From positions 1-64,000 of the forward strand of contig QEUM01000008.1 of the NCBI GenBank assembly GCA_003577165.1: a stretch of DNA of 64,000 bases. Direction: 5' to 3'. The translations under genes and the position numbers were made by a program. The notes below the pieces were generated by a model. The model was not told where the DNA came from. It saw only the letters and a list, made by a program, of their open reading frames with translations, and did not search any database. The DNA is from Armatimonadota bacterium. Lineage in GTDB: Bacteria; Armatimonadota; Fimbriimonadia; Fimbriimonadales; ATM1. This document shows positions 20,080-33,621 of the stretch, in pieces (position 1 is the stretch's first letter; the number at the start of each line of letters is the position of its first letter).

Positions 20080-20733
20080 GTGAACACGAATTCCGCGCCC
20101 GACGCGCTTGCAAAGAGACTGCTCGTCGTCTTCGTGACTCTCGCGCTTGCCTTCGGAATCGCCGCGCTTCTTTACTTGCGGAGTAAGAGCGGCGAGGCCG
20201 CAGCGGCAGGTTTTGGCGGAGAGTTGCAGCCGCTTGACAACTACGGAGCGGCGCCGAAGTTCGAGGGCGTCGACCAGAGCGGCACGGCGACCACGCAGAG
20301 GGATTACCAGGGCAAAGTCTGGATCGCAGGCTTCTTTTTCTCTCGGTGCGCAGGCGTGTGCCCTAAACTGATGCAGAACTGGCGTTACCTCCAAGAACAG
20401 CTTGGCGACTCCACCGACTTCGGCATCGCATCGTTCACCGTCGATCCGGGGCACGACACGCCGAAGGTGCTGGCCGATTTCGGATCGAAGTACAGCGTCC
20501 GGCATCCGGTCTGGAGGCTCATCCACATGGACAGGGCCGATGTCGTGGCCTTGAGCCGCAACGGGTTCCGGCTCGGCACCTCGGAGGTGCCTGAGGAGTT
20601 CGTCCATAGCGACCGGTTCGTTCTGATCGACCGGGAGAACAAGATCCGGGGCTACTACCGGGGTACCGACAAGGACGACATCGCCCGGCTGGCGACGGAC
20701 GCCAAGACACTGATCGAGACTCCCGGCCGGTGA
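20080..20733 (+). CDS. SCO1/SenC family copper chaperone
   Basis: SCO proteins deliver copper to, or reduce, the CuA site of cytochrome oxidase subunit II. This 217-residue protein has an N-terminal membrane anchor (residues 13-31) and an exported thioredoxin fold. The copper ligands are the CAGVCP pair (CxxxC) near residue 90 and the distal histidine in FVHSDRFVLID. It starts at a GTG eight bases after the subunit III-like gene, and its stop overlaps the DUF420 start (GTGA). A second SCO protein is encoded at 29458-30330. Confidence 0.92.
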   Translation: MNTNSAPDALAKRLLVVFVTLALAFGIAALLYLRSKSGEAAAAGFGGELQPLDNYGAAPKFEGVDQSGTATTQRDYQGKVWIAGFFFSRCAGVCPKLMQNWRYLQEQLGDSTDFGIASFTVDPGHDTPKVLADFGSKYSVRHPVWRLIHMDRADVVALSRNGFRLGTSEVPEEFVHSDRFVLIDRENKIRGYYRGTDKDDIARLATDAKTLIETPGR

Positions 20734-21167
20734 TCTCTCTCGAGGGTCTGCCCGCGGTGAACGCCTGCTTCAACGGGGCCAGCGCCGTCTGCTTGGTCCT
20801 CGGCTACGTCTTCATCCGGCGGGGCAACCGGCGGGTCCATCGGGCGTTCATGCTTGCGGCGCTGGCGGCCTCAACTCTCTTTCTCGTCGGCTACCTCACC
20901 TATCACGTCCAGGTGGGGACGACCAGGTTCCTGGGGGAGGGGGTCTGGCGGCCCGTTTACTTCTCGATCCTGACGAGCCATACGATTCTGGCGGCGGCCG
21001 TGGTCCCGCTGGCCGCAATCACCCTGTTTCGTGCTCACAAGGGGCTGTTCGACCAGCATCGGCGGGTGGCCCGGTGGACGCTCCCGGTCTGGCTCTACGT
21101 TTCGGTGACCGGCGTGCTGATCTACTTCATGCTCTACCAATGGTTTCCGCATCACACAGGAGGTTAG
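20730..21167 (+). CDS. DUF420 membrane protein (CtaM/YozB-like)
   Basis: This 145-residue protein has four membrane helices and matches the DUF420 family, one member of which (CtaM) helps assemble aa3-type oxidases in Gram-positive bacteria. Conserved features are NACFNGASAVCLVLGYVFIR, GYLTYHVQVG, a His in LTSHTILAA and the C-terminal TGVLIYFMLYQW. It starts at a GTG overlapping the SCO stop. A weak hairpin (TTAGC-GAG-GCTAA) overlaps its stop, with TTTTT eight bases further on. Confidence 0.85.
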   Translation: MISLEGLPAVNACFNGASAVCLVLGYVFIRRGNRRVHRAFMLAALAASTLFLVGYLTYHVQVGTTRFLGEGVWRPVYFSILTSHTILAAAVVPLAAITLFRAHKGLFDQHRRVARWTLPVWLYVSVTGVLIYFMLYQWFPHHTGG

Positions 21168-21198
21168 CGAGGCTAATAAGGCCCTTTTTGGGGGACTT

Positions 21199-21214
21199 TG
21201 TGAAAAAAATCACA
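21199..21214 (+). promoter_or_regulatory. Perfect CRP-type palindrome (TGTGA-N6-TCACA)
   Basis: TGTGA-aaaaaa-TCACA is an exact match to the core of the CRP consensus, with the required 6-base spacer. It lies in the 306-base gap between the DUF420 gene and actA. Its centre (21206.5) would be at about -63.5 relative to a start of transcription inferred from TAAGAT at 21258-21263, close to the -61.5 of class I CRP sites. Confidence 0.55.
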
Positions 21215-21232
21215 GATTGGGCCGCTCCGGGC

Positions 21233-21263
21233 TTGACTGCCCCAATCCGACAACGGCTAAGAT
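21233..21263 (+). promoter_or_regulatory. Candidate promoter of the ACIII operon
   Basis: TTGACT (21233-21238) and TAAGAT (21258-21263) are separated by 19 bases, longer than ideal, as is often seen in activator-dependent promoters. The implied leader is about 200 bases. I see no ORF in the rest of the gap (21264-21473). Confidence 0.4.
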
Positions 21264-21473
21264 TCGCCGGACTGCGTTGCGGTAACGCATTCGGGGATGT
21301 CGCCGCGGCGTCGAGAACCGTCCGGACCGGCCCGCTGGTCCAACATGATGGGTGTTGAGCATCGAATCGAGGCGCGAGAGGTCCGGGAGTTGACAACCCG
21401 CGGCAGCAGTCCAGCGTCCCTGGCCCCATTTGGCCCAGCCCAGCGTCTTGAGCGACAGGTCCGGTGAAGTTTC

Positions 21474-22124
21474 ATGCCACAGGTCTTCGGAAAAGGTAGC
21501 AACGTTCTCGTCAAGGTGACCCTCATTGGAGGCGGCCTGCTTCTGTTTACGGTCGTGATGGTCGGAATGTACATGACGCCCTACACCCACGACCTGGGAA
21601 TCGCCTTCGACCAGCCCGCGCCGTTCAGCCACAAGCACCACTTCGAGCAGTTGGGAATCCACTGCAAGTACTGCCACACGCAGGTCGAGGACGCACGGTT
21701 CGCCGGCGTGCCGGCGACCGAGACGTGCATGACATGCCACTCCCAAATCTGGACGAACAGCCCGCTCTTGGAGCCGGTTCGTTCGAGTTACGCCAAGGGC
21801 GAGCCGATCCGGTGGAACCGCATCACGAACGCCCCTGATTTCGTGTACTTCAACCACAGCGTCCACATCGCGAAGGGAGTCTCCTGTTTCACTTGCCACG
21901 GCCGGGTGGATCAGATGAACCTGATGTATAAGGAGAACGCCTTCGAGATGAAGTGGTGCTTGAACTGCCACAGGAATCCTGAGCAGTTTGTGCGCCCGAA
22001 GGCCGAGATCTACAACCCGAATTACGCGCCTTCCCAGGACCACGCGGCGCTGGGCCGTGAGTTGGTGAAGACTCTCGGGATTGAGAAGGAGCAGATCCAG
22101 AACTGCTCGGTGTGCCACAGGTAG
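21474..22124 (+). CDS. actA: Alternative complex III, pentaheme cytochrome c subunit ActA
   Basis: ActA is the multiheme cytochrome of alternative complex III, the quinol:cytochrome c (or oxidase) reductase that replaces bc1. The 216-residue protein has an N-terminal membrane anchor (residues 12-34) and five heme c motifs: CKYCH (64-68), CMTCH (85-89), CFTCH (138-142), CLNCH (162-166) and CSVCH at the C-terminus. Several His residues (FSHKHH, FNHSVH) are candidate sixth ligands. It is the first gene of an operon that runs through actB-F to the caa3 oxidase. Confidence 0.95.
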   Translation: MPQVFGKGSNVLVKVTLIGGGLLLFTVVMVGMYMTPYTHDLGIAFDQPAPFSHKHHFEQLGIHCKYCHTQVEDARFAGVPATETCMTCHSQIWTNSPLLEPVRSSYAKGEPIRWNRITNAPDFVYFNHSVHIAKGVSCFTCHGRVDQMNLMYKENAFEMKWCLNCHRNPEQFVRPKAEIYNPNYAPSQDHAALGRELVKTLGIEKEQIQNCSVCHR

Positions 22125-22151: not shown

Positions 22152-25100
22152 ATGGAGGAGAACGGAATTCCCGAGAGCAGCAAGTCGAGCGGCCTGAACC
22201 TGGCCGAGATTCGCGAGAAGATCGAACAGGAGCCTGACCGGCAGTTCACGAGTCTCGGTGAAGTCGCGGAGACGCCCGCGGCCGTCGAGTTCATCCACCG
22301 TGAGTTTCACCGCGAAGCCGCCCCCTGGATGGCGGACTTCGATCGCCGCACGTTTCTCAAGGTAATGGGGGCATCGGCGGCGCTCGCCGGGCTCGCCGCC
22401 TGCCGGCCGAAGATCCACGAAAAGATCGTTCCCTACGTCAAGTCGCCCGAAGAAGTGGTTCCGGGTGAGCCGCTCCAATACGCGACGACGGTCAACTTCG
22501 CCGGGTACGGGTTTGGCGCGCTCGCCACGGCCTACGACGGCAGGCCCACAAAATTGGACGGCAACGACCTTCATCCGGCGACGATCGGCGCGAGCGACAT
22601 CTATCTTCAGGCGTCGATTCTCGATCTGTATGACCCGAATCGCGGGGAGTCGGTCATCCACCGTGGAGCGATCTCGACGCGAGACGAATTCTTCGGTTCC
22701 GCTCGCACCATGCTGCGAGCAGCGACCAACCAGGGCTCGGGCGTGAGGTTTTTGATCGAGCCAACTACGTCACCGACGTTTAAGGAGCAGTGGGAAGCGC
22801 TCAAGGCAAAGTTGCCGAAAGCAAAGCTCCACGTTTGGGATCCGATCAACTTCGATAACGCCAGGGCGGCGGCGGTGGCCGCGTTCGGCAAGCCGGTGGA
22901 CGCGGTTTACGATTTCACGCAAGCGAAGGTCATCGTCTCGCTCGACTCGGACTTTGTCAACGAAGGGCCGCAGCGAATTCGAGCCATGAGGGACTACTCC
23001 GCGATGCGCCGAGTTTCCGATGAGAACTCGGAGATGAGCCGGCACTATCAGTTCGAGTCGACACCCACGATCACGGGGACGACAGCGGACCACCGGGCCG
23101 GCGTTGCCGCGAGCGACATGCTCGCGGTTGCAAAGGCACTCGCTGCGGCGCTCGGCGTGATCGGAGGCGCCTCGCCGGTCACCGGCAAGGCCGGGACGAT
23201 GGTCGAAGCGGCAGCCGCCGATCTCGCGGCCAACCAGAGCGCCGGCCTGGTGATCGTTGGTCCGGGACAGCCTCCTGCGGTTCACGTGCTTGCGCACGCG
23301 ATCAACAACGCACTTGGAAATGTCGGCAAGACGGTGCGTTACGTGGAGTCTCCGGAAGTGGAGCCGGTCGTCTATCTTGACTCTCTGCGCGAACTCATCG
23401 AGGACATGAAGAACGGTGAAGTCGAGGCTCTATTCGTCATCGGGGCGAATCCGGTTTTCACAGCTCCGTCCGACTTCGGTTTCGCCGAACTCTATCGAAC
23501 GAAGGTTCCGTTCACAGCACACCTCGGACTTTATGAGACGGAGACGGGCGTGCTGAGCATGTGGCACCTGCCACGCGCCCATGATCTCGAAGAGTGGTCT
23601 GATTCGCGCGCGTTCGATGGCACAGCGTCCATCGTTCAGCCTTTGATCGAGCCGCTGCACGACGGGATGTCCGTGCACACATTCATGGCGGGCTTGATCG
23701 AAGACAACCGCGCGCCGTTGGACATCGTTCGTTCAACGTGGCAGTCGGCAGCGCCGGACGAGAAGTCGTGGCGACGACTGCTTCATGAGGGTGTGATCCA
23801 TGGGACGGAACAGCCGAGCGAAGCGCTGATCTTCAACCAGGCTGCGCTGGACATGCTCGACGATCCTTCGATGTCGCTCCAGCCGAGAGGCGAGGGGATC
23901 GAAGTTCTGTTCCGACCGGATCCTACAATTCACGACGGACGCTTTGCGAACAACAGTTGGCTTCAGGAACTGCCGAAGCCGCTCACTAAGATCACTTGGG
24001 ACAACGTCGTCTACGTCAGTCCGAAGATGGCCCAAGAGATGGGCATCGATCAGGAGACGGAGGAAGGGGACATCGGCGGCGATTACCGGGTTCCGATGGT
24101 CGAGATCACCGTCGGGAAGAACAAGATTCAGGCGCCCGCGTGGATTTTGCCGGGCCAGCCCGACCGAACCGTGACGGTTCTGCTCGGTTACGGGCGGACT
24201 CAGGCCGGTTCCGTTGGGAACGGTGTCGGCACGAACACTTATGGAATCCGGACTTCTGATTCCATGTGGACGGCCGTTGCCTCCGACATCGCGAAGACGG
24301 GCCAGCGTTACGAACTCGCGACGACGCAGCACCACTATCGCATGGAAGGAAGGCACTTGGTGCGCTCCTCGTCGCTCGAGGGCTTCAAGGCGAATCCGCA
24401 CTTTGCAACTGAATATGACCACATTTCGCTGCCGGAGTCCGCGAAGCGGGGGGGCGGCGAGCACGACGAAGACGTGCGCGTTTCCATGTATCCGGAGCGA
24501 GAGTGGAAGGGTCACGCCTGGGGGATGGTCATCGACACGACGACGTGCACCGGGTGCAACGCTTGCGTGGTCGCCTGCCAGGCAGAGAACAACATCCCCA
24601 CGGTCGGCAAGGAGGACATCAAGCGCGGACGCGAGATGCACTGGATACGGATCGATCGCTACTACGAAGGCGACTTGGACGATCCGGAAACGCACTTGAT
24701 GCCGGTGAACTGCATGCACTGCGAGCAGGCGCCGTGTGAAGTGGTGTGTCCCGTCGCTGCGACGTCTCACAGCGTCGAGGGCCTCAACGAGATGATTTAC
24801 AACCGTTGCGTGGGCACTCGTTACTGTTCCAACAACTGTCCGTACAAGGTGCGGCGATTCAACTACTTCCAGTTCTCCGACATCACGAGTCCGCTGCTGA
24901 GGCTGAAGAACAACCCGAACGTCACGGTCCGCGGCCGAGGCGTGATGGAGAAGTGTACATATTGCGTCCAACGGATCAACGCGGCCCGGCAGAAGGCGAA
25001 GGCCGAGAACCGACCGATCCGGGAAGGCGAGGTTCTCACGGCTTGCCAGACGGCCTGTCCGGCGCAAGCGATCACATTCGGAGACATTCACAACGCGGAG

Positions 25101-25226
25101 AGTCAGGTTGTGAAGGTGAAGCAGCAGCCGCACAACTACTCACTTCTCAAGGAACTGAACACCATTCCTCGCACGACCTATTTGGCGAAGTTACGGAACC
25201 CGAACCCGGCACTGGAGAACGCTTAG
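22152..25226 (+). CDS. actB: Alternative complex III, iron-sulfur subunit ActB
   Basis: The 1024-residue ActB combines a molybdopterin-oxidoreductase-like domain (about residues 80-750) with a C-terminal ferredoxin domain. The former is known in ACIII to lack the molybdenum cofactor. The ferredoxin part has CTGCNACVVACQAENN, CMHCEQAPCEVVCP, CVGTRYCSNNCPYK and CTYCVQR with a later CQTACPAQA, enough for three [4Fe-4S] clusters and one [3Fe-4S] cluster. A Tat motif (DRRTFLKVMG) after about 60 residues, followed by LAGLAAC, suggests export and possible lipid attachment. Confidence 0.95.
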   Translation: MEENGIPESSKSSGLNLAEIREKIEQEPDRQFTSLGEVAETPAAVEFIHREFHREAAPWMADFDRRTFLKVMGASAALAGLAACRPKIHEKIVPYVKSPEEVVPGEPLQYATTVNFAGYGFGALATAYDGRPTKLDGNDLHPATIGASDIYLQASILDLYDPNRGESVIHRGAISTRDEFFGSARTMLRAATNQGSGVRFLIEPTTSPTFKEQWEALKAKLPKAKLHVWDPINFDNARAAAVAAFGKPVDAVYDFTQAKVIVSLDSDFVNEGPQRIRAMRDYSAMRRVSDENSEMSRHYQFESTPTITGTTADHRAGVAASDMLAVAKALAAALGVIGGASPVTGKAGTMVEAAAADLAANQSAGLVIVGPGQPPAVHVLAHAINNALGNVGKTVRYVESPEVEPVVYLDSLRELIEDMKNGEVEALFVIGANPVFTAPSDFGFAELYRTKVPFTAHLGLYETETGVLSMWHLPRAHDLEEWSDSRAFDGTASIVQPLIEPLHDGMSVHTFMAGLIEDNRAPLDIVRSTWQSAAPDEKSWRRLLHEGVIHGTEQPSEALIFNQAALDMLDDPSMSLQPRGEGIEVLFRPDPTIHDGRFANNSWLQELPKPLTKITWDNVVYVSPKMAQEMGIDQETEEGDIGGDYRVPMVEITVGKNKIQAPAWILPGQPDRTVTVLLGYGRTQAGSVGNGVGTNTYGIRTSDSMWTAVASDIAKTGQRYELATTQHHYRMEGRHLVRSSSLEGFKANPHFATEYDHISLPESAKRGGGEHDEDVRVSMYPEREWKGHAWGMVIDTTTCTGCNACVVACQAENNIPTVGKEDIKRGREMHWIRIDRYYEGDLDDPETHLMPVNCMHCEQAPCEVVCPVAATSHSVEGLNEMIYNRCVGTRYCSNNCPYKVRRFNYFQFSDITSPLLRLKNNPNVTVRGRGVMEKCTYCVQRINAARQKAKAENRPIREGEVLTACQTACPAQAITFGDIHNAESQVVKVKQQPHNYSLLKELNTIPRTTYLAKLRNPNPALENA

Positions 25227-25250: not shown

Positions 25251-26642
25251 ATGCAGACCGAAGCAATCAACCGACCGAGCGAAGATGTCCTGATCGAAGG
25301 AGATCACAACTACTCGACGTTAACCGAAAAGATCAGCACGGTTGTCACGGAGGGCAAGATTCCGCGCAACTTGCTGATGGTCTTCGGGTTCGCCGGCCTC
25401 TGTCTCACGGTTTTCCTAATCGCCGTCGCTTACCTTTTCGCAGTCGGCACGGGTGTCTGGGGAATCAACAACCCGACCGGCTGGGGGTATGCGATCATCA
25501 ACTTCGTTTGGTGGATCGGAATCGGCCACGCAGGAACGCTGATTTCGGCGATCCTTCTTCTGATGCGTCAGCGATGGCGAACGTCCATCAACCGGCTCGC
25601 CGAAACGATGACGCTGTTTGCGGTGATGTGCGCCGGACTGTTCCCGATCCTCCACCTCGGACGTCCGTGGATCTTCTACTGGCTGATGCCGTATCCGAAC
25701 GCGCTCGCGATGTGGCCCAACTTCCGCAGCCCGTTGGTGTGGGACGTGTTCGCGGTTTCGACGTACTTTACGGTTTCGCTTTTGTTCTGGTACGTCGGGC
25801 TGATTCCCGACCTCGGCACGATTCGGGACAAGGTGAAGTCGAGGGTAGGAAAGGTGCTGGCGGGGATTTTCGCGCTCGGGTGGCGCGGATCGGTCGCTCA
25901 CTGGCACCGCTACGAATCGCTTTACTTGATCTTGGCGGGGCTCTCGACTCCCCTGGTGCTATCGGTTCACTCGATCGTTAGCTTCGACTTTGCCGTTTCG
26001 ATCATTCCGGGTTGGCACACGACCGTGTTTCCCCCGTACTTCGTCGCCGGAGCGGTTTTTGCCGGGTTCGCGATGGTGCTGACTCTCGTGATTCCCATCC
26101 GGCATTGGTACGGGATGAAGGACCTGATCACGATGGACCACCTCGAGTGGATGGGCAAGATCATGCTCACGACCGGTCTCGTGGTGTTCTATGGATATCT
26201 GATCGAGATGTTCTACGCCGCGTTCAGCGGGAACCAGTACGAGATCGCACTCGCGATGAACCGGCTGACGGGGCCGTATCAAGTTTCCTACTTCTTGTTG
26301 ATTCTCTGCAACGGGCTCGTGCCGCAGTTCATGTGGTCGAAGAAACTCCGCAGGAACGAGGTTTCGCTGTTCGTCGTGAGCATGTTCGTCAGCGTGGGCA
26401 TGTGGCTGGAGCGGTTCGTCATCGTTCCGGTAAGCCTGACGCGAGACTTCATGCCATCGTCCTGGGGAATGTACGACCCGACGATTTGGGACATCGGCAC
26501 CTACGTCGGTACGTTTGGAATCTTCCTGGGCGGCATGGTTGTGTTCATGCGGTTCCTGCCAGCGATTCCGATGTCGGAGATGCGGCACTTGCTGCATATG
26601 ACGCACGCTGAAAAGGGTCATGCTCACGGGGGGGCGCACTAA
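25251..26642 (+). CDS. actC: Alternative complex III, NrfD-like membrane subunit ActC
   Basis: This 463-residue protein has about ten membrane helices and belongs to the NrfD/PsrC family, which binds quinol at the periplasmic side. Conserved stretches include NFVWWIGIGHAGTLISAILL, FPILHLGRPWIFYWL and SFDFAVSIIPGWHTTVFPPY. In ACIII it is the main quinol-binding subunit together with ActF. The His-rich C-terminus (MTHAEKGHAHGGAH) is a small peculiarity. The stop overlaps the actD ATG (TAATG). Confidence 0.95.
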   Translation: MQTEAINRPSEDVLIEGDHNYSTLTEKISTVVTEGKIPRNLLMVFGFAGLCLTVFLIAVAYLFAVGTGVWGINNPTGWGYAIINFVWWIGIGHAGTLISAILLLMRQRWRTSINRLAETMTLFAVMCAGLFPILHLGRPWIFYWLMPYPNALAMWPNFRSPLVWDVFAVSTYFTVSLLFWYVGLIPDLGTIRDKVKSRVGKVLAGIFALGWRGSVAHWHRYESLYLILAGLSTPLVLSVHSIVSFDFAVSIIPGWHTTVFPPYFVAGAVFAGFAMVLTLVIPIRHWYGMKDLITMDHLEWMGKIMLTTGLVVFYGYLIEMFYAAFSGNQYEIALAMNRLTGPYQVSYFLLILCNGLVPQFMWSKKLRRNEVSLFVVSMFVSVGMWLERFVIVPVSLTRDFMPSSWGMYDPTIWDIGTYVGTFGIFLGGMVVFMRFLPAIPMSEMRHLLHMTHAEKGHAHGGAH

Positions 26643-27193
26643 TGAGCCAAGCCGTTGCCGTAAAGACCGACCTGTTCGGAATCGTCGCTCAGTACGAGGA
26701 CTCGGATCAACTGATCGAGGCTGCTCGCCGCGCGCGCGATGCCGGATATACGAAGATGGACGGTTACGCGCCGTTCGCGATCGAGGAGTTGCCCGACATC
26801 CTCGGCAACCGCGACGACCGGATTCCGTGGGTGATGTTCTTCGGAGGAATGTTCGGCGCGATCGGCGGTTTCGGCCTGCAGGTCTGGGTTGCGAATGTGG
26901 ATTACGCGCTCAACATCGGAGGCCGTCCGAACATCAGTTGGCCGTCCTTCGTACCCGTGACGTTTGAGTGCATGGTTCTCGCGGCGGCCATCTCCGGCCT
27001 GGTCGGGATGATCGCTCTCAACGGCCTTCCGCGGCCACATCATCCGCTGTTCGACGCTCCCGACTTCGAGCGGGTAACTCAGGATCGGTTTTTCCTGTGC
27101 ATCGAGTCGAGCGATCCGAATTTCGATCGTGACTCCGTGGCGAAGTTTCTTGAGAGCACAGGAGCGATCTCCGTATCGGAGGTGAAGGAATGA
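26642..27193 (+). CDS. actD: Alternative complex III subunit ActD (DUF3341)
   Basis: This 183-residue protein matches the DUF3341 family, the ActD subunit. An N-terminal soluble domain (FGIVAQYEDSDQLIEAARRA, GYTKMDGYAPFAIEELPD) precedes two membrane helices (about 61-83 and 103-125), and the C-terminal domain includes LPRPHHPLF. It overlaps actC and actE by one and four bases, so the operon is tightly coupled. Confidence 0.93.
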   Translation: MSQAVAVKTDLFGIVAQYEDSDQLIEAARRARDAGYTKMDGYAPFAIEELPDILGNRDDRIPWVMFFGGMFGAIGGFGLQVWVANVDYALNIGGRPNISWPSFVPVTFECMVLAAAISGLVGMIALNGLPRPHHPLFDAPDFERVTQDRFFLCIESSDPNFDRDSVAKFLESTGAISVSEVKE

Positions 27194-27870
27194 GGTCCCG
27201 AATCACCATCGGCGCGAGCGCTGCGCTCGTTTGCGCGGTGTCTATCACGGCGTGCATCCGCGACGACATGTGGCAGCAGGCGAGGCTGAATCCGCTCGGC
27301 GAGAGCGAGTTCTTCGCAGACAAGAAGGCGTCGAGAGAGCCGGTCCCCGGGACAGTGGCGCGCGGCAAATTGGAAGAGGACGACTTCCTGTACCGAGGCA
27401 TGGTCGGCGGCAAGGCCGCCGAGACCTTCCCGCCGGAGATCGAGATCAAGATGGAGACCCTGACGCGGGGCCAAGAGCAGTACGATGTGTACTGCGCTCC
27501 ATGCCACGGCCGGACGGGCGACGGGCTCGGCATGATCGTCCGCCGCGGTTTCCGGCAGCCGCTGGCCTTTTACGATCCCAAACTGGCGGCCAAGCCGGTC
27601 GGCTACTACATTCAGGTTCTCAACGAGGGCTACAAGGGGCCGGACGGGAAACCGATTCCCGCCGGGACGACTCCTTATATCTGGACTGACGACATGGTTC
27701 ACCCCCCGCTCGGCAAGCAGTTGAGTGCCCACGACAAGTGGGCCGTTGTGGCGTACATTCAAGCGCTCAAACTGAGCCAGCGCGCCGGAGTGAGCGACGT
27801 CCCAGCAGAAGAACTTCAGAAACTCGAGTCCGGGGGCAGCACGGAGGCAAGCGCGAATGGAAGCCACTAA
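27190..27870 (+). CDS. actE: Alternative complex III, monoheme cytochrome c subunit ActE
   Basis: The 226-residue protein has a lipoprotein-type signal (AVSITAC at residues 16-22) and one heme c motif, CAPCH, at about residue 102. NPLGESEFFAD and RGMVGGKAAETFP are typical of ActE. It passes electrons from ActA/ActB towards the terminal acceptor. The methionine ligand is probably in TDDMVHPPLG. The ATG overlaps the actD stop and the 3' end overlaps actF. Confidence 0.93.
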   Translation: MRSRITIGASAALVCAVSITACIRDDMWQQARLNPLGESEFFADKKASREPVPGTVARGKLEEDDFLYRGMVGGKAAETFPPEIEIKMETLTRGQEQYDVYCAPCHGRTGDGLGMIVRRGFRQPLAFYDPKLAAKPVGYYIQVLNEGYKGPDGKPIPAGTTPYIWTDDMVHPPLGKQLSAHDKWAVVAYIQALKLSQRAGVSDVPAEELQKLESGGSTEASANGSH

Positions 27871-29035
27871 GCCGAGATTCCCCTCGCTCACCGGGATACA
27901 GGTCCTCGGGGCCGTCTTTGGGATCGCAGGGCTGGGATACTGGGCGACCACGGTGGGCTCGAACCCGGAGACTGCCTGGCAGAGCTACACATACGGCTTC
28001 TTCGCGTGGCTGACTCTGTCGCTCGGTCTCCTCGGGCTGACCATCCTGGTCAACTTAGTCAAGGCGAAATGGGGACTTCCTTTCGTTCGGTTTTCCGAAG
28101 CCGGCGTTCGGATGCTCGTGCTGATGCTGCTGCTCGCCATTCCGCTTGTGTTCGTCGGCCTGTCGCACGTCTACCCGTGGGCGAAGCCCGGCGGCGTTCC
28201 GGAGTGGGGTCAGACCTTCGCGTTCAAGAAGGCTTACTTGGAACCAGGGTTCTTCACGCTTCGCCTGGCGCTCTATTTCGCCATTTGGCTTGGGTTCGGT
28301 TTCGCACTGATCCGGCTTGGAAAGAAGCAGGACGAAACTGGCGATCCGAACTTGGAGAACCGGCGTTCGAGCATTGCCGCTGCGGGTGCGGTCTTCTATG
28401 TGCTTGCTGTGACATTCGCTGTCACGGACCTCATCATGTCGCTCGAAGAGCACTGGTACTCGACGATATTCGGTCTTCTCAACGTCGCGGGCCAAGCGCT
28501 TGCCGGGACTGCGCTGGTAACGGTGTTCTTGATCTCGGTGCGAAACAACGAGACGTACGAGGGCGTGATCCCCGCGCGACAGTGGCGAGACTTGGGCAAC
28601 CTACTGTTCACGCTGGTCGTCTTCTGGGCGTACCTCGCCTTTTCGCAACTGCTCATTATTTGGTCGGGCAACTTGCCTGAAGAGATCACTTACTACATGA
28701 ATCGCAGCGAAGGGCCGTGGTTCTATGTCGGCGTCGCGATCTGCTTCCTTCACTTCCTGCTGCCGTTCCTGCTGCTGCTCTCAAGCCGCGTCAAGAAGAC
28801 GCCTGGGATGCTGGCGGGAGTTGCCGTGTTCATCCTTCTGATGCGGGCTGCGGAAGTGACTTGGGCGGTCATCCCGTCGCTCCATCGCGAAGGCCTACCG
28901 TTTTTGCCGACTGACGCCGCTGCGTTTATCGGCATCGGCGGGATTTGGGTCGCTGTCTTCTGCCAAGTCCTCAAGTCTTCAAAACTGATTCCTTCCTATG
29001 CGCCTGTCACTCGGAGGTTAGTCGAACATGCATGA
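27857..29035 (+). CDS. actF: Alternative complex III, second NrfD-like subunit ActF
   Basis: This 392-residue polytopic protein is the second NrfD-like subunit of ACIII. About ten helices are visible. FAVTDLIMSLEEHWYSTIFG and LAFSQLLIIWSGNLPEE are characteristic of ActF. The first 14 bases overlap actE, so the genes are translationally coupled. It completes the actA-F set. Confidence 0.94.
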   Translation: MEATKPRFPSLTGIQVLGAVFGIAGLGYWATTVGSNPETAWQSYTYGFFAWLTLSLGLLGLTILVNLVKAKWGLPFVRFSEAGVRMLVLMLLLAIPLVFVGLSHVYPWAKPGGVPEWGQTFAFKKAYLEPGFFTLRLALYFAIWLGFGFALIRLGKKQDETGDPNLENRRSSIAAAGAVFYVLAVTFAVTDLIMSLEEHWYSTIFGLLNVAGQALAGTALVTVFLISVRNNETYEGVIPARQWRDLGNLLFTLVVFWAYLAFSQLLIIWSGNLPEEITYYMNRSEGPWFYVGVAICFLHFLLPFLLLLSSRVKKTPGMLAGVAVFILLMRAAEVTWAVIPSLHREGLPFLPTDAAAFIGIGGIWVAVFCQVLKSSKLIPSYAPVTRRLVEHA

Positions 29036-29465
29036 ACATGATTCCGAGCCGCACGTCGACCAGGGATACGAAAAGGATGATCTGTATCGCCCAAAGTCGG
29101 CGTTCATCTTCTCATTCGGCATTCTCGCCGGGACTGCGCTTTTCATTGTGTTGATGATCGGTGTGAACCGCTTCGTCCTCAATCGCCGGCCGACGCTGGA
29201 AAGCACCCCGTGGACACAGACGAAATTCGACCCGACCGGCCAGGCGGTCGTCGAAGCGGCTCCGACGGAGAACTTCAAGAAGCACTTCGAACAGGAGCAG
29301 GAGATGCTCACCACCTATGGCTGGGTGGACAAGGAGAAGGGCGTCGTTCGAATCCCGATTCAGAAAGCGATGGAAATAGCGGCGCAGCGTGGACTTCCGC
29401 TAAGCAAGCCTGCGGCAGAACCCCAGCCGAGCACGGACACCCCGAAGCAGGAGGGCAATGGATAG
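29028..29465 (+). CDS. Hypothetical single-helix protein in the ACIII/cox operon
   Basis: This 145-residue protein has a polar N-terminus, one membrane helix (residues 24-45), and a soluble tail carrying EQEMLTTYGWVDKEKGVVRI then PIQKAMEIAAQRGLP. I have seen similar YGWVD...VRIPI...RAM segments in small proteins next to SCO genes in other phyla, but I cannot name the family. A GGAGG lies ten bases before the ATG. Its position between actF and the second SCO suggests a supercomplex subunit or assembly factor. Confidence 0.65.
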   Translation: MHEHDSEPHVDQGYEKDDLYRPKSAFIFSFGILAGTALFIVLMIGVNRFVLNRRPTLESTPWTQTKFDPTGQAVVEAAPTENFKKHFEQEQEMLTTYGWVDKEKGVVRIPIQKAMEIAAQRGLPLSKPAAEPQPSTDTPKQEGNG

Positions 29466-30330
29466 GTTCGCCCTTCGAGTCTGGGCCGCTGCGGCGGTGA
29501 CCGTCGCAACTCTTGTTGCGGCGGCGTTGCCGGCGCGCGCGCAGATTTCCGCCCAAGATTTGAGCGACCGGGTCGGGATCGATCAGAGGCTCAACGATCT
29601 GGTTCCGCTCGACGCGTCGTTCGTGGACGAGAAGGGAAAGGCCGTTAAGATCGGCGACTACTTGGGCAACAAGAAACCCATCCTGCTGGTGCTGATCTAT
29701 TACAAGTGCCCGTCGCTTTGCAACCGCATTCTGAACGCGACGCTGGAGGCCATACAGCCCATCAAGTACACGGTCGGAAAGGAATTCGACATCGTGTGCG
29801 TGTCCATTGACCCGCGGGAGACGCCCGACGTGGCGAACCGCAAGAAGCAGTCCTACGTTCGATCTTACGGCCGAGAGGGTTCCGCGAACGGTTGGCACTT
29901 CCTAACGGGCACGGAGAGCGAGATTCAGCGGTTGGCGGCAGCCACCGGCTACCGATACGCCTATGACCCCAAGTTCGACATCTACGCGCACGGCGCCGGG
30001 ATTATGCTGGTGACGCCGGAGGGCCACCTCGCTCAGTATTTCCTCGGAATCGAGTACTCGCCACGCGATCTGGAACTCGCGATTACGCAGGCATCAGAGG
30101 AGCGAATCGGTTCGCTCGTAGACGACATTATCTTGTATTGTTTCATCTGGGATCCGAGTACCGGGAAGTACTCGCTGCAGATCCTGCGCGTCGTTCAGTT
30201 GGGCGCGATCCTCACCGTGCTCGTTCTCGGCATCGGGATCGTACGCATGGTACGAAAGGAAAAACGCAATCCGATGCTACCGCCCGGACCCCGCACTGAC
30301 GATCCATCTGGAGAGAAGAAAAACGCATGA
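29458..30330 (+). CDS. SCO family protein with C-terminal membrane helix
   Basis: The 290-residue protein has a cleavable signal peptide (ending ALPARAQ), a thioredoxin-like SCO domain with the copper-site CxxxC in YYKCPSLCN, a His in YAHGAGIMLVTPEG, and a C-terminal membrane helix (about 238-260) after FIWDPSTGKYSLQ. This longer SCO type is often encoded directly before coxB. It overlaps the preceding gene by eight bases and coxB by four. It probably loads copper into CuA of the downstream subunit II. Confidence 0.9.
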   Translation: MDRFALRVWAAAAVTVATLVAAALPARAQISAQDLSDRVGIDQRLNDLVPLDASFVDEKGKAVKIGDYLGNKKPILLVLIYYKCPSLCNRILNATLEAIQPIKYTVGKEFDIVCVSIDPRETPDVANRKKQSYVRSYGREGSANGWHFLTGTESEIQRLAAATGYRYAYDPKFDIYAHGAGIMLVTPEGHLAQYFLGIEYSPRDLELAITQASEERIGSLVDDIILYCFIWDPSTGKYSLQILRVVQLGAILTVLVLGIGIVRMVRKEKRNPMLPPGPRTDDPSGEKKNA

Positions 30331-31343
30331 TGTTAGCCCAGTTCTTGCCGGAGCAAGCCTCCGAGTTCGCGCCTCAGATCGACTTCCTCTATTTGCTGTT
30401 GGTCGCCCTGACGGCCTTCTTTACGTTGGGAATCAAGGCCGTCATCATCTACTTCATCGTGAAGTATCGCCAGGGGAAGAAGGCGGACCGCTCGAACCCA
30501 CAGCATCACCACACGAAGTTGGAACTGACTTGGACGATCCTTCCGACGCTGATGCTCGTGCCGATCTTTTGGTGGAACGCGGAGCTGTTCATCAACATGT
30601 ACGAACCGCTCGACGTCTCGAAGGCGAGGAATTCGCTGGAGATTTACGTCGTTGGAAAGCAGTGGATGTGGCATCTGCAGCATCCCACCGGTCAGCGCGA
30701 GAACAACGAACTGCACATTCCTGTTGGACGACCTATCAAACTCACGATGATCGCGCAGGACGTGCTCCACAGTTTCTACGTTCCGGCATTCCGCGTGAAG
30801 AAGGACGTCGTTCCAGGCCGGTACACGACCCAGTGGTTCGTTCCGACGAAGGTGGGCAAGTACCATCTGTTTTGCGCTGAGTATTGCGGCACGAAGCACT
30901 CCGAAATGGGAGGCTACGTGTACGTGATGGAGCCCGAAGATTATGAAAAGTGGCTTGAGGACGCTCGCTGGGGCATGGGCAATTTCCGATCGGCGGAGAC
31001 GATGGAGGCGGCAGGCAAGCGGCTCTTCACGGAACTCAAGTGCGTGGATTGTCATGGCGAGAAGGCAACGCAGCGAGTTCCCTTGGATGGGATTTACGGT
31101 ACAGAGAGGCTCCTTTCGGACGGGCGTCGCGTTGTGGCTGACGACGAGTATCTGAGGAGATCGATCTTGGACCCAGGCGCCATGAAGGTCGCCGGACATG
31201 AACCGATCATGCCTCCTTATGCCGGTCGGGTCCTTGAGCAGGAGATTCTCGAACTGATCACTTACATCAAGTCGCTGTCCGCCAAGCCAGAGCCGGTGGG
31301 GAAGCCGGCGGCTGAGGCGAGTGAAGCAAGAGGTACTGAATGA
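30327..31343 (+). CDS. coxB: Cytochrome c oxidase subunit II with fused cytochrome c (caa3)
   Basis: The 338-residue subunit II has two N-terminal membrane helices, a cupredoxin domain with the CuA ligands (HSFYVPAFR and [12 protein letters not shown] at about residues 187-198), and a C-terminal cytochrome c domain with CVDCH near residue 237. The fusion marks a caa3-type oxidase. An exposed Met in EPIMPPYAG is the expected heme ligand. The gene is coupled to the SCO gene before it and to coxA after it. Confidence 0.96.
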
Positions 31344-32959
31344 GCGCAGTTGCTGAGCCAAAAACCGAGAAAAACTATCTCAACGTCGACTACAGCATTA
31401 AGTCGTGGTTGACGACGCTGGATCACAAGCGGATCGGGATTCTCTATCTCGTTGCCATCACCATCTTCTTCATGGTGGGCGGGTTCATGGCGCTCTTGAT
31501 CCGCACGGAACTGGCGACGCCTCAAGGCGACCTGCTGTCGAGTGACCAGTACAATCGCGCATTCACGATGCACGGCGTCGTGCTGATCTTCTTCTTCCTG
31601 CTTCCTTCGACGCCTGCGGTTCTTGGCAACTTCCTCTTGCCGATCATGATCGGCGCGCGTGACGTCGCCTTCCCGAAATTGAATCTGGCGAGTTGGTACG
31701 CGTTCATGATCGGAGGCACGCTTGGAGTCATCTCTCTGGTTCTCGGCGGCATTGACACGGGCTGGACGTTTTACGCGCCGTACTCCTCGAACTTCTCGAA
31801 CACGCCGGTGGTGTGGGCCATCGCTGGAGCGTTCGTCGCGGGATTTGGAAACATCGCGACGGCCGTCAACTTCATCGTTACCATTCACAAGATGCGGGCG
31901 CCAGGTCTCACCTGGTTTAGGCTGCCGCTGTTCGTTTGGGCACAGTACGCGACGGCGGTCATCGGCGTCTTGGGCACGCCGGTCATCGCGATCACCATCT
32001 TTCTGGTCGCCTTTGAGCGACTGACGGGAATGGGGATCTTTGACCCTGCACGCGGCGGCGATCCCATCCTGATGCAGCACCTGTTCTGGTTCTACTCGCA
32101 CCCCGCGGTGTACATCATGATCCTGCCCGCGATGGGCGTGACGAGCGAGATGATCGCGGCTGCATCGCAGAAGCGAGTGTTCGGATACGAGTTCGTCGCG
32201 TTCTCGAGCCTGGCCATCGCGATTATCGGATTCCTTGTCTGGGGCCACCACCTGTTCGTAAGCGGCCAGTCTGTGTTCGCGGGACTGGTGTTCAGCGTGC
32301 TGACGTTCATCGTTGCGATCCCTTCGGCAATCAAGACTTTCAACTGGGTGGCCACGATGTACAAGGGCAACTTGCAGATGAACACGCCGATGTTTTGGGC
32401 GGTCGCCTTCTTGGGACTGTTCCTGATCGGCGGGCTCACGGGCCTGTTCCTGTCATCGCTTGCGACCGACATCCACCTTCACGACACGTATTTCGTCGTC
32501 GCGCACTTCCACTACATCATGGTGGGTGGCGCGATCATCGGATTCATCGGCGGACTCCACTTCTGGTGGCCTAAGATCACAGGGCGCATGTATCCAGAAT
32601 CGTGGGGCAAGGCCGGCGCGATCATGGTGTTCACGGGCTTCTCACTGACGTTCCTTCCGCAGTTTGTCTTAGGACAGCTGGGCATGCCGCGTCGGTATCA
32701 CACGTATCCGGAGGAGTTTCAAATCCTGCACGTGCTGTCGACCGGCGGCGCATATTTGTTAGGATTTGCGATGACCACGATCATCGTGTACCTTGCGTGG
32801 TCGGCGAAGTACGGCAAGCCCGCACCGCCGAATCCATGGAAGGCAAAAGGACTGGAATGGGAGACGCCTTCTCCTCCGCCGACTGAGAACTTCACCTATA
32901 AGGTGGTGGTCACAGAGCCGGCGTACAACTACCACAAGGATTCGGGAGGCCACCACTAA
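31340..32959 (+). CDS. coxA: Cytochrome c oxidase subunit I (A2-type heme-copper oxidase)
   Basis: This 539-residue catalytic subunit binds heme A and the heme a3-CuB site that reduces oxygen. [17 protein letters not shown] carries heme and copper ligands, and [18 protein letters not shown] carries a CuB His and the cross-linked Tyr. The YSHPxV sequence, in place of the Glu of GHPEVY, is the marker of A2-type oxidases, in which Tyr and Ser substitute in the D-channel. Rhodothermus marinus, which also has ACIII, has the same type. Confidence 0.96.
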
Positions 32960-33621
32960 TGAGCACGGAGACCCAAGAACACGACCCGCTGCTCGCGCAT
33001 CAGTTCGAGGATGTCGAACAGCAGACGGACTCGTACGTTCTCGGCATGTGGGTGTTCCTCGTAACGGAGGTTCTGTTCTTCGGCGGGATGATCTTAGCGT
33101 TCATCCTGTACAGGAATATGTACTTCCCGGCGTTCGCCGAGGCCCACCAGAAACTCGACTGGCGTCTGGGCGGCGTCAACACGATCGTGCTGCTGACTTC
33201 GAGTTTCACGATGGCGATGGCGGTATGGGCTTCTCAGAAGAGGGACTACGGCAAACAACTCATGTTCCTCACGATCACCGTGCTGTGTGCCCTCGCGTTC
33301 TTGGTCATCAAGTATTTCGAGTACAGCGCAAAGTTCGAGCACCACTTGGTGCCCGGCACAAACTTCCACTTTGACGGTCAGAACCAGAACGGAGTCCAGT
33401 TGTTCTTCGGCTTGTACTTCGCCCTCACGGGATTGCACGGGTTCCACGTGTTGGTCGGTGTGCTGGTTATCGGCGTCCTGATGTTCCGAGTGTGGAAGCT
33501 GCGCAAGCAGGAGCAAGACTACGTGCCGACCGAACTTGTCGGACTGTACTGGCACTTCGTCGACATCGTATGGATCTTCTTGTACCCGATGCTCTATCTG
33601 CTCGGCGGAGTGCACATTTAG
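32959..33621 (+). CDS. coxC: Cytochrome c oxidase subunit III
   Basis: The 220-residue protein has five membrane helices plus a polar N-terminus, typical of bacterial subunit III. GMWVFLVTEVLFFGGMILAF, LTGLHGFHVLVGVLVIG and GLYWHFVDIVWIFLYPMLYL are the conserved stretches. The ATG overlaps the coxA stop (TAATG). It differs clearly from the 19425-20072 paralogue. Confidence 0.95.
   Translation: MSTETQEHDPLLAHQFEDVEQQTDSYVLGMWVFLVTEVLFFGGMILAFILYRNMYFPAFAEAHQKLDWRLGGVNTIVLLTSSFTMAMAVWASQKRDYGKQLMFLTITVLCALAFLVIKYFEYSAKFEHHLVPGTNFHFDGQNQNGVQLFFGLYFALTGLHGFHVLVGVLVIGVLMFRVWKLRKQEQDYVPTELVGLYWHFVDIVWIFLYPMLYLLGGVHI

Follow-up and report, generated by a model that had tools for sequence, protein, structure and literature searches.

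A predicted Rex operator upstream of the alternative complex III–caa3 oxidase operon of an Armatimonadota bacterium

The operon and its upstream region

The window, the whole 64-kb stretch of DNA that was analysed, carries an operon which, judged by its gene content and Pfam assignments, encodes alternative complex III (ACIII) and a cytochrome-c-fused (caa3-type) oxidase. All its genes lie on the + strand. The first is actA (21474..22124; PF14522), the gene of the multihaem cytochrome c subunit of ACIII, which was detected in 57 of the 61 genomes searched. It is followed by actB (22152..25226), encoding the iron-sulfur subunit with its Fer4 domains and named from order and size, actC (25251..26642; PF03916) for an NrfD-like membrane subunit, actD (26642..27193; PF11821 ActD), actE (27190..27870; PF13442/PF00034) for a cytochrome c, and a probable actF (27857..29035), assigned by position. 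Further downstream are the genes of a SCO1/SenC copper chaperone (29458..30330; PF02630), COX2 with the C-terminal cytochrome c domain of the caa3 type (30327..31343; PF00116, PF00034), COX1 (31340..32959; PF00115) and COX3 (32959..33621; PF00510). Two genes within the operon, at 29028-29465 and 27857-29035, have no Pfam match, and the larger occupies the actF place.

Upstream of this operon, starting 31 bases 3' of the stop of a DUF420 gene (20730-21167) and separated from actA by 259 bases, lies TGTGAAAAAAATCACA (21199-21214), an exact TGTGA-N6-TCACA. A reading made earlier from the sequence alone had placed an exact regulatory palindrome in front of the ACIII-caa3 operon, and this is borne out by the sequence, by the Pfam assignments downstream and by conservation in relatives. 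The palindrome is enclosed by a predicted Rex operator, TTGTGAAAAAAATCACAG (21198..21215, strand-neutral), which matches TTGTGA-N6-TCACAA at 11 of 12 arm positions and the full 18-base inverted repeat TTGTGAA-N4-TTCACAA at 12 of 14 consensus positions, the right arm being off consensus (CACAG). The search for further copies that the sequence-only reading had suggested returned no second exact one in the 2.75-Mb genome; with at most one mismatch, TGTGA-N6-TCACA has 31 matches, this site included, versus 19 with the reversed control.

Downstream of the palindrome a promoter is predicted, with a -35 element TTGACT (21233..21238, +) and a -10 element TAAGAT (21258..21263, +) separated by a 19-base spacer, which would place the transcription start near 21270 and the palindrome centre near -64. 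An automatic promoter scan allowing spacers of 16-18 did not call this pair. The predicted promoter is supported because its layout recurs, as TTGAC[TA]-18/19-T[TA]NNAT at the same place in relatives of the own family (G005, G003, G007 and G001), and as TTGACA with an 18/19 spacer at all 14 loci of a second family. The spacing given in the sequence-only reading, about 63 bases from the site to the start of a long-spacer promoter, agrees with the 64 or so bases found here. In what follows, f1 is the own family, and the second family, f2, as well as f3, f4 and f5, are other families of the same order.

Conservation of the site and co-occurrence with Rex

Each site was scored by how many of the 12 arm positions in TTGTGA-N6-TCACAA it matches and called at a score of at least 10, the best relatives reaching 12/12. 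Upstream of actA, such a site is found in 6 of the 7 other f1 genomes (0.09 expected from dinucleotide shuffles) and in 14/14 f2 genomes (0.12 expected), that is, in 20 of 21 genomes jointly versus about 0.2 expected, which answers positively the question of whether the palindrome is conserved in related actA upstream regions. G001 (f1) has only a degenerate site there. None of 28 regions of f4 and f3 has a site before actA (0.34 expected from shuffles); these comprise 27 f4 genomes and one f3 genome (G009, locus L150), with six more actA-bearing f4 genomes outside the count. Two f4 genomes, G025 and G027 (L111, L112), have two actA copies each, and the copy 58% identical to that of the window has no upstream Rex site.

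The conserved form in f1 and f2 is (AC)TTTGTG-N8-CACAAA, in which some left-arm T are replaced by C. G or C frequently stands in for the inner T of TCACA, whereas the outer GTG/CAC and the TT/AA are mostly kept, and the element conserved in relatives is TTGTGA-N6-TCACAA. The bare 10-base palindrome is unremarkable alone, and it is its conservation that sets the own site above chance: a leave-one-out matrix from 19 relatives' sites, own site excluded, gives it 26.8 bits, versus 8.1 for the runner-up in the 64 kb. PMC5317091 and PMC8376106 give the Rex operator consensus as TTGTGAANNNNTTCACAA, TTGTGAA-N4-TTCACAA, and PMC8063818 and PMC8376106 describe Rex as bound to DNA with NAD+ and freed by NADH. 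Since Rex sites consist of the core that they share with CRP sites plus an outer T and A, the conserved TTGTGA-N6-TCACAA is read as a Rex operator.

The own genome encodes a Rex protein of 209 aa (G000:C17:2401-3030) with winged-helix and NAD(H)-binding domains. It scores 207.6 bits against NF003995 (cut-off 126), passing two and failing six of the narrower Rex models. Its alignment with Thermus Rex (2dt5, 3ikt, 1xcb) spans residues 7-197 and includes QVRKDLSxFG, in which RKDLS is the recognition stretch (Thermus Lys47 is counted inside RKDLS). The NAD-contacting Ala and Tyr of Thermus Rex are matched in the alignment; the NAD-contacting residues of Rex are named in the excerpted text of PMC8063818.

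The Rex N-terminal domain (PF06971) is found over its cut-off in 7/8 f1 genomes (own included), in 17/18 of f2 and in G009 (f3), and in 0/33 genomes of f4; in G011 (f5) the match is weak and partial. The site before actA is kept in Rex-encoding relatives and lost where Rex is missing, the exceptions being G009, with Rex and actA and no site, G001, and G002 and G040 (88% and 85% complete), which have the site and no PF06971 match.

Within the order, site and Rex go with families, so that the genomes are not independent; for this reason, other phyla were tested. Among 80 distant loci found by an ActA search, nine score at least 10, with L038 not counted, about 0.9 being expected from shuffles of the full 80. 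L038 was set aside, leaving 79 loci, of which 50 entered the test. Ten were treated as site loci, nine scoring at least 10 and L031 scoring 9; L073 and L082 are weak, and L024 has just 110 bases of upstream sequence. The ten site loci are titled Acidobacteria, Chloroflexi/Anaerolineae, Hydrogenedentota, Chthonomonadia and bacterium HR16. Rex was over the cut-off in 10/10 site-bearing genomes versus 10/40 others (Fisher p = 1.8e-5, or 6.7e-5 once L031 is counted as site-less), in a single scan whose score was picked after the order-level motif had been seen.

The motif is also found elsewhere in relatives. Upstream of rex it is present (score at least 10) at 13/17 f2 loci, where the operon consists of a sigma-70-family gene followed by rex, and where inspected closely it lies just before the sigma gene. 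In f1, none of 7 rex loci, own genome included, has it within the stretch read, and the 1.5 kb before the own rex holds no match scoring at least 10. It precedes ctaB (heme o synthase) in G018, at -49, and atpB in G001, where the site may fall inside an upstream reading frame. In G005 and G007 (L233, L234), a Rex-type site lies before an RpoD-like sigma gene (hmmscan on G005), at -66 and -63. A sigma-70-family (RpoD-like) gene is thus found behind a Rex-type site in both f1 and f2, and in f2 (e.g. L238, L239) it is this gene that precedes rex. Upstream of the Rex site of the f2 rex operon (e.g. L159, L163, L164, L239) there is a conserved GGAAC-N16/17-CGTAT pair, which we take to resemble an ECF sigma promoter. 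A possible Rex site also lies near nuo in G003; neither this one nor some further loci that were inspected are included in the evidence.

Genome-wide, the fuller Rex consensus does separate Rex-encoding from Rex-less genomes: with at most one mismatch it has 44 matches versus 6 for the control in 25 Rex-encoding genomes, and 12 versus 15 in 33 f4 genomes. Nothing in the own genome matches at this stringency. At two mismatches, its seven other matches all overlap long open frames and no other good intergenic site was seen, and therefore no wider Rex regulon can be claimed for it. The looser TTGTG-N8-CACAA was discarded as a discriminator, with 0 matches versus 4 in the control in the own genome and, at one mismatch, 16 versus 27.

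Operator position and sign of regulation

It is likely that the palindrome is an operator of Rex, an NADH/NAD+-sensing winged-helix repressor that would hold down the ACIII-caa3 operon. The site, its conservation, the Rex gene, the cross-phylum co-occurrence and the presence of the motif before rex operons and further respiratory genes in relatives are computed observations, from which we infer binding, ligand response and a repressive sign. The model proposes that Rex-NAD+ occupies TTGTGAAAAAAATCACAG, some 64 bases before the start of a sigma-70-type promoter, where it would lower ACIII-caa3 transcription through contact with RNA polymerase or hindrance of it. If electrons leave too slowly, NADH would accumulate and Rex would be released, giving more of the quinol-oxidising complex and of the oxidase. 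In f2, repression may possibly involve looping from an operator near -61 to another at +65 to +113.

Operator positions were taken relative to predicted starts, with the best-scoring promoter used at each locus. The upstream operator is centred at -60 to -64 in 15/22 loci (own included); four others have it roughly one helical turn away, at -52 or -72 to -74. The own f1 site is at -64, with others of this family at -61 to -87 and the only operator of G004 at +11. Two operators are present at 13 of the 14 f2 loci, one between -52 and -64 and the other between +65 and +113; the remaining locus, in G008, has a single one at +63. A predicted promoter overlaps the site in two Hydrogenedentes loci and in one acidobacterium (L063). 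In the gal operon, GalR binds the two operators OE and OI, one near -60 and one downstream. The f2 arrangement shares this placing, but belongs to another repressor family, and the own genome has one operator. Spacings in f2 are 126-128 and 162-177 bases and keep no one helical phase, so a Gal-like loop is a possibility only.

Besides the right-arm departure, the lack of a second good intergenic site or of a site before the own rex, and the exceptions in the co-occurrence, two points of position speak against a Rex repressor: the operator precedes the -35 box and does not cover the promoter, and it recurs at -60 to -64 in most relatives, as would be expected of an activator. This recurrence, together with the one-turn shifts, fits polymerase contact and could also mean activation, in which Rex near -62 would touch the alpha subunit of the polymerase, as in class I, and raise ACIII-caa3 at high NAD+, when oxygen is plentiful. 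The promoter-like sequences behind the operators are near consensus in f2, and the placing is similar at the sigma-70-family gene of G005 and G007 and at ctaB of G018. A fixed position near -60 also suits a contact repressor such as GalR, however, and the downstream operators present at 14/14 f2 loci and in G004, as well as the promoters overlapping the site in other phyla, fit repression. The excerpts of PMC5317091, PMC8376106 and PMC8063818 also present Rex as a repressor. Activation by Rex is hence considered unlikely. The best reading is repression, which accounts for all operator positions and is ranked before activation.

More tentatively, and with rather low probability, Rex could be a position-dependent NAD+ sensor, whose helically phased site near -62 would set ACIII-caa3 output by polymerase contact, with downstream operators adding repression and a sigma-70-family factor governed as well. 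If so, a whole respiratory programme would be tuned by redox state in these Armatimonadota, and the same would hold for ACIII in further phyla.

The CRP/FNR alternative and known systems

TGTGA-N6-TCACA is common to CRP and Rex sites, which calls for caution in reading this motif. At class I promoters of E. coli CRP, it is centred near -62. The sequence-only reading had accordingly proposed class I activation of the ACIII-caa3 operon by a CRP/FNR-family regulator. The distance agrees with this layout and is found repeatedly between -60 and -64, but not throughout the set, in which operators also occur at +11, between +63 and +113, or on top of the promoter. Searches with PF00027 and PF13545 found three cyclic-nucleotide-domain proteins in the own genome, two of them with a helix-turn-helix and hence of CRP/FNR type, so the homologue whose search had been suggested is present. 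The proposal had been made to depend on such a homologue and on conservation of the palindrome, and by these checks alone it would have passed. The recognition helix of E. coli CRP (Arg, Glu, Arg) uses Arg at the TGTGA guanine; that of both own proteins, GTTVE(S/T)xIR (GTTVES/GTTVET...IR), is FNR-like and without this Arg.

In relatives, a PF00027 search of 14 chosen genomes found no match in the site-bearing G008 (100% complete), G016 (98%), G020 (95%) and G007 (73%), and one in G006, in a 165-aa open frame. HTH_Crp_2 (PF13545, E up to 1e-8) was searched in 61 genomes; it was found in 26/33 genomes of the site-less f4 and not in the site-bearing G006, G007, G008, G016 and G020. CRP-like sites are not in excess in the 64-kb window, where 9 matches within two mismatches compare with 17.4 expected. 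Control by CRP/FNR was rejected on the pattern counts and on these searches (both models in the own genome, PF13545 in 61 and PF00027 in 14 genomes). In spite of the exact core, the class-I-like distance and the two own proteins, a CRP/FNR-family activator on the palindrome is very improbable: no cyclic-nucleotide-domain protein is detectable in G008, G016 and G020, which keep the site, most site-less f4 genomes possess such regulators, and it is the inner T of TCACA that is often lost. The palindrome is assigned to Rex rather than to CRP because of its flanking bases, the co-occurrence with Rex and the CRP-less site-bearing genomes. A functionless chance palindrome, for which a lone exact 10-base match in 2.75 Mb would be unsurprising by itself, is hardly credible given that 20 of 21 other f1 and f2 genomes keep the site, most of them with the promoter layout.

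The predicted Rex operator thus shares with E. coli CRP class I promoters the core and the centre near -62, and differs from them in its outer TTGTG/CACAA, in its co-occurrence with Rex and in the three nearly complete site-bearing genomes without a detectable cyclic-nucleotide-domain protein. In Streptomyces coelicolor, Rex operators (ROP) are found at cydABCD, nuo and hemACD, according to the excerpted text of PMC8063818. Both systems share the consensus TTGTGAA-N4-TTCACAA, the presence of rex in the genome and targets in the respiratory chain; unlike there, the target here is ACIII with a caa3 oxidase, and the operator precedes the -35 box, f2 loci having another in the leader.

Control of ACIII transcription seems little studied. 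No regulatory link between Rex and ACIII was found in the open-access literature searched, which also yielded no paper on Rex and NADH in Armatimonadetes, and the excerpts of PMC5317091 and PMC4215793 contain no tie between Rex and ACIII. Control by Rex would tie an alternative respiratory complex to the redox state of the cell. The Rex operator is found repeatedly upstream of actA, in loci with the titles Fimbriimonadales, Chthonomonadia, Acidobacteria, Chloroflexi/Anaerolineae and Hydrogenedentes, and a testable rule would be that, where Rex and site are kept, ACIII output follows NADH/NAD+. In the own genome, rex (L176 1483-2112; G000 contig 17) is directly followed by a gene that by eye resembles nadB (L-aspartate oxidase), an adjacency that would link NAD synthesis to the NADH sensor.
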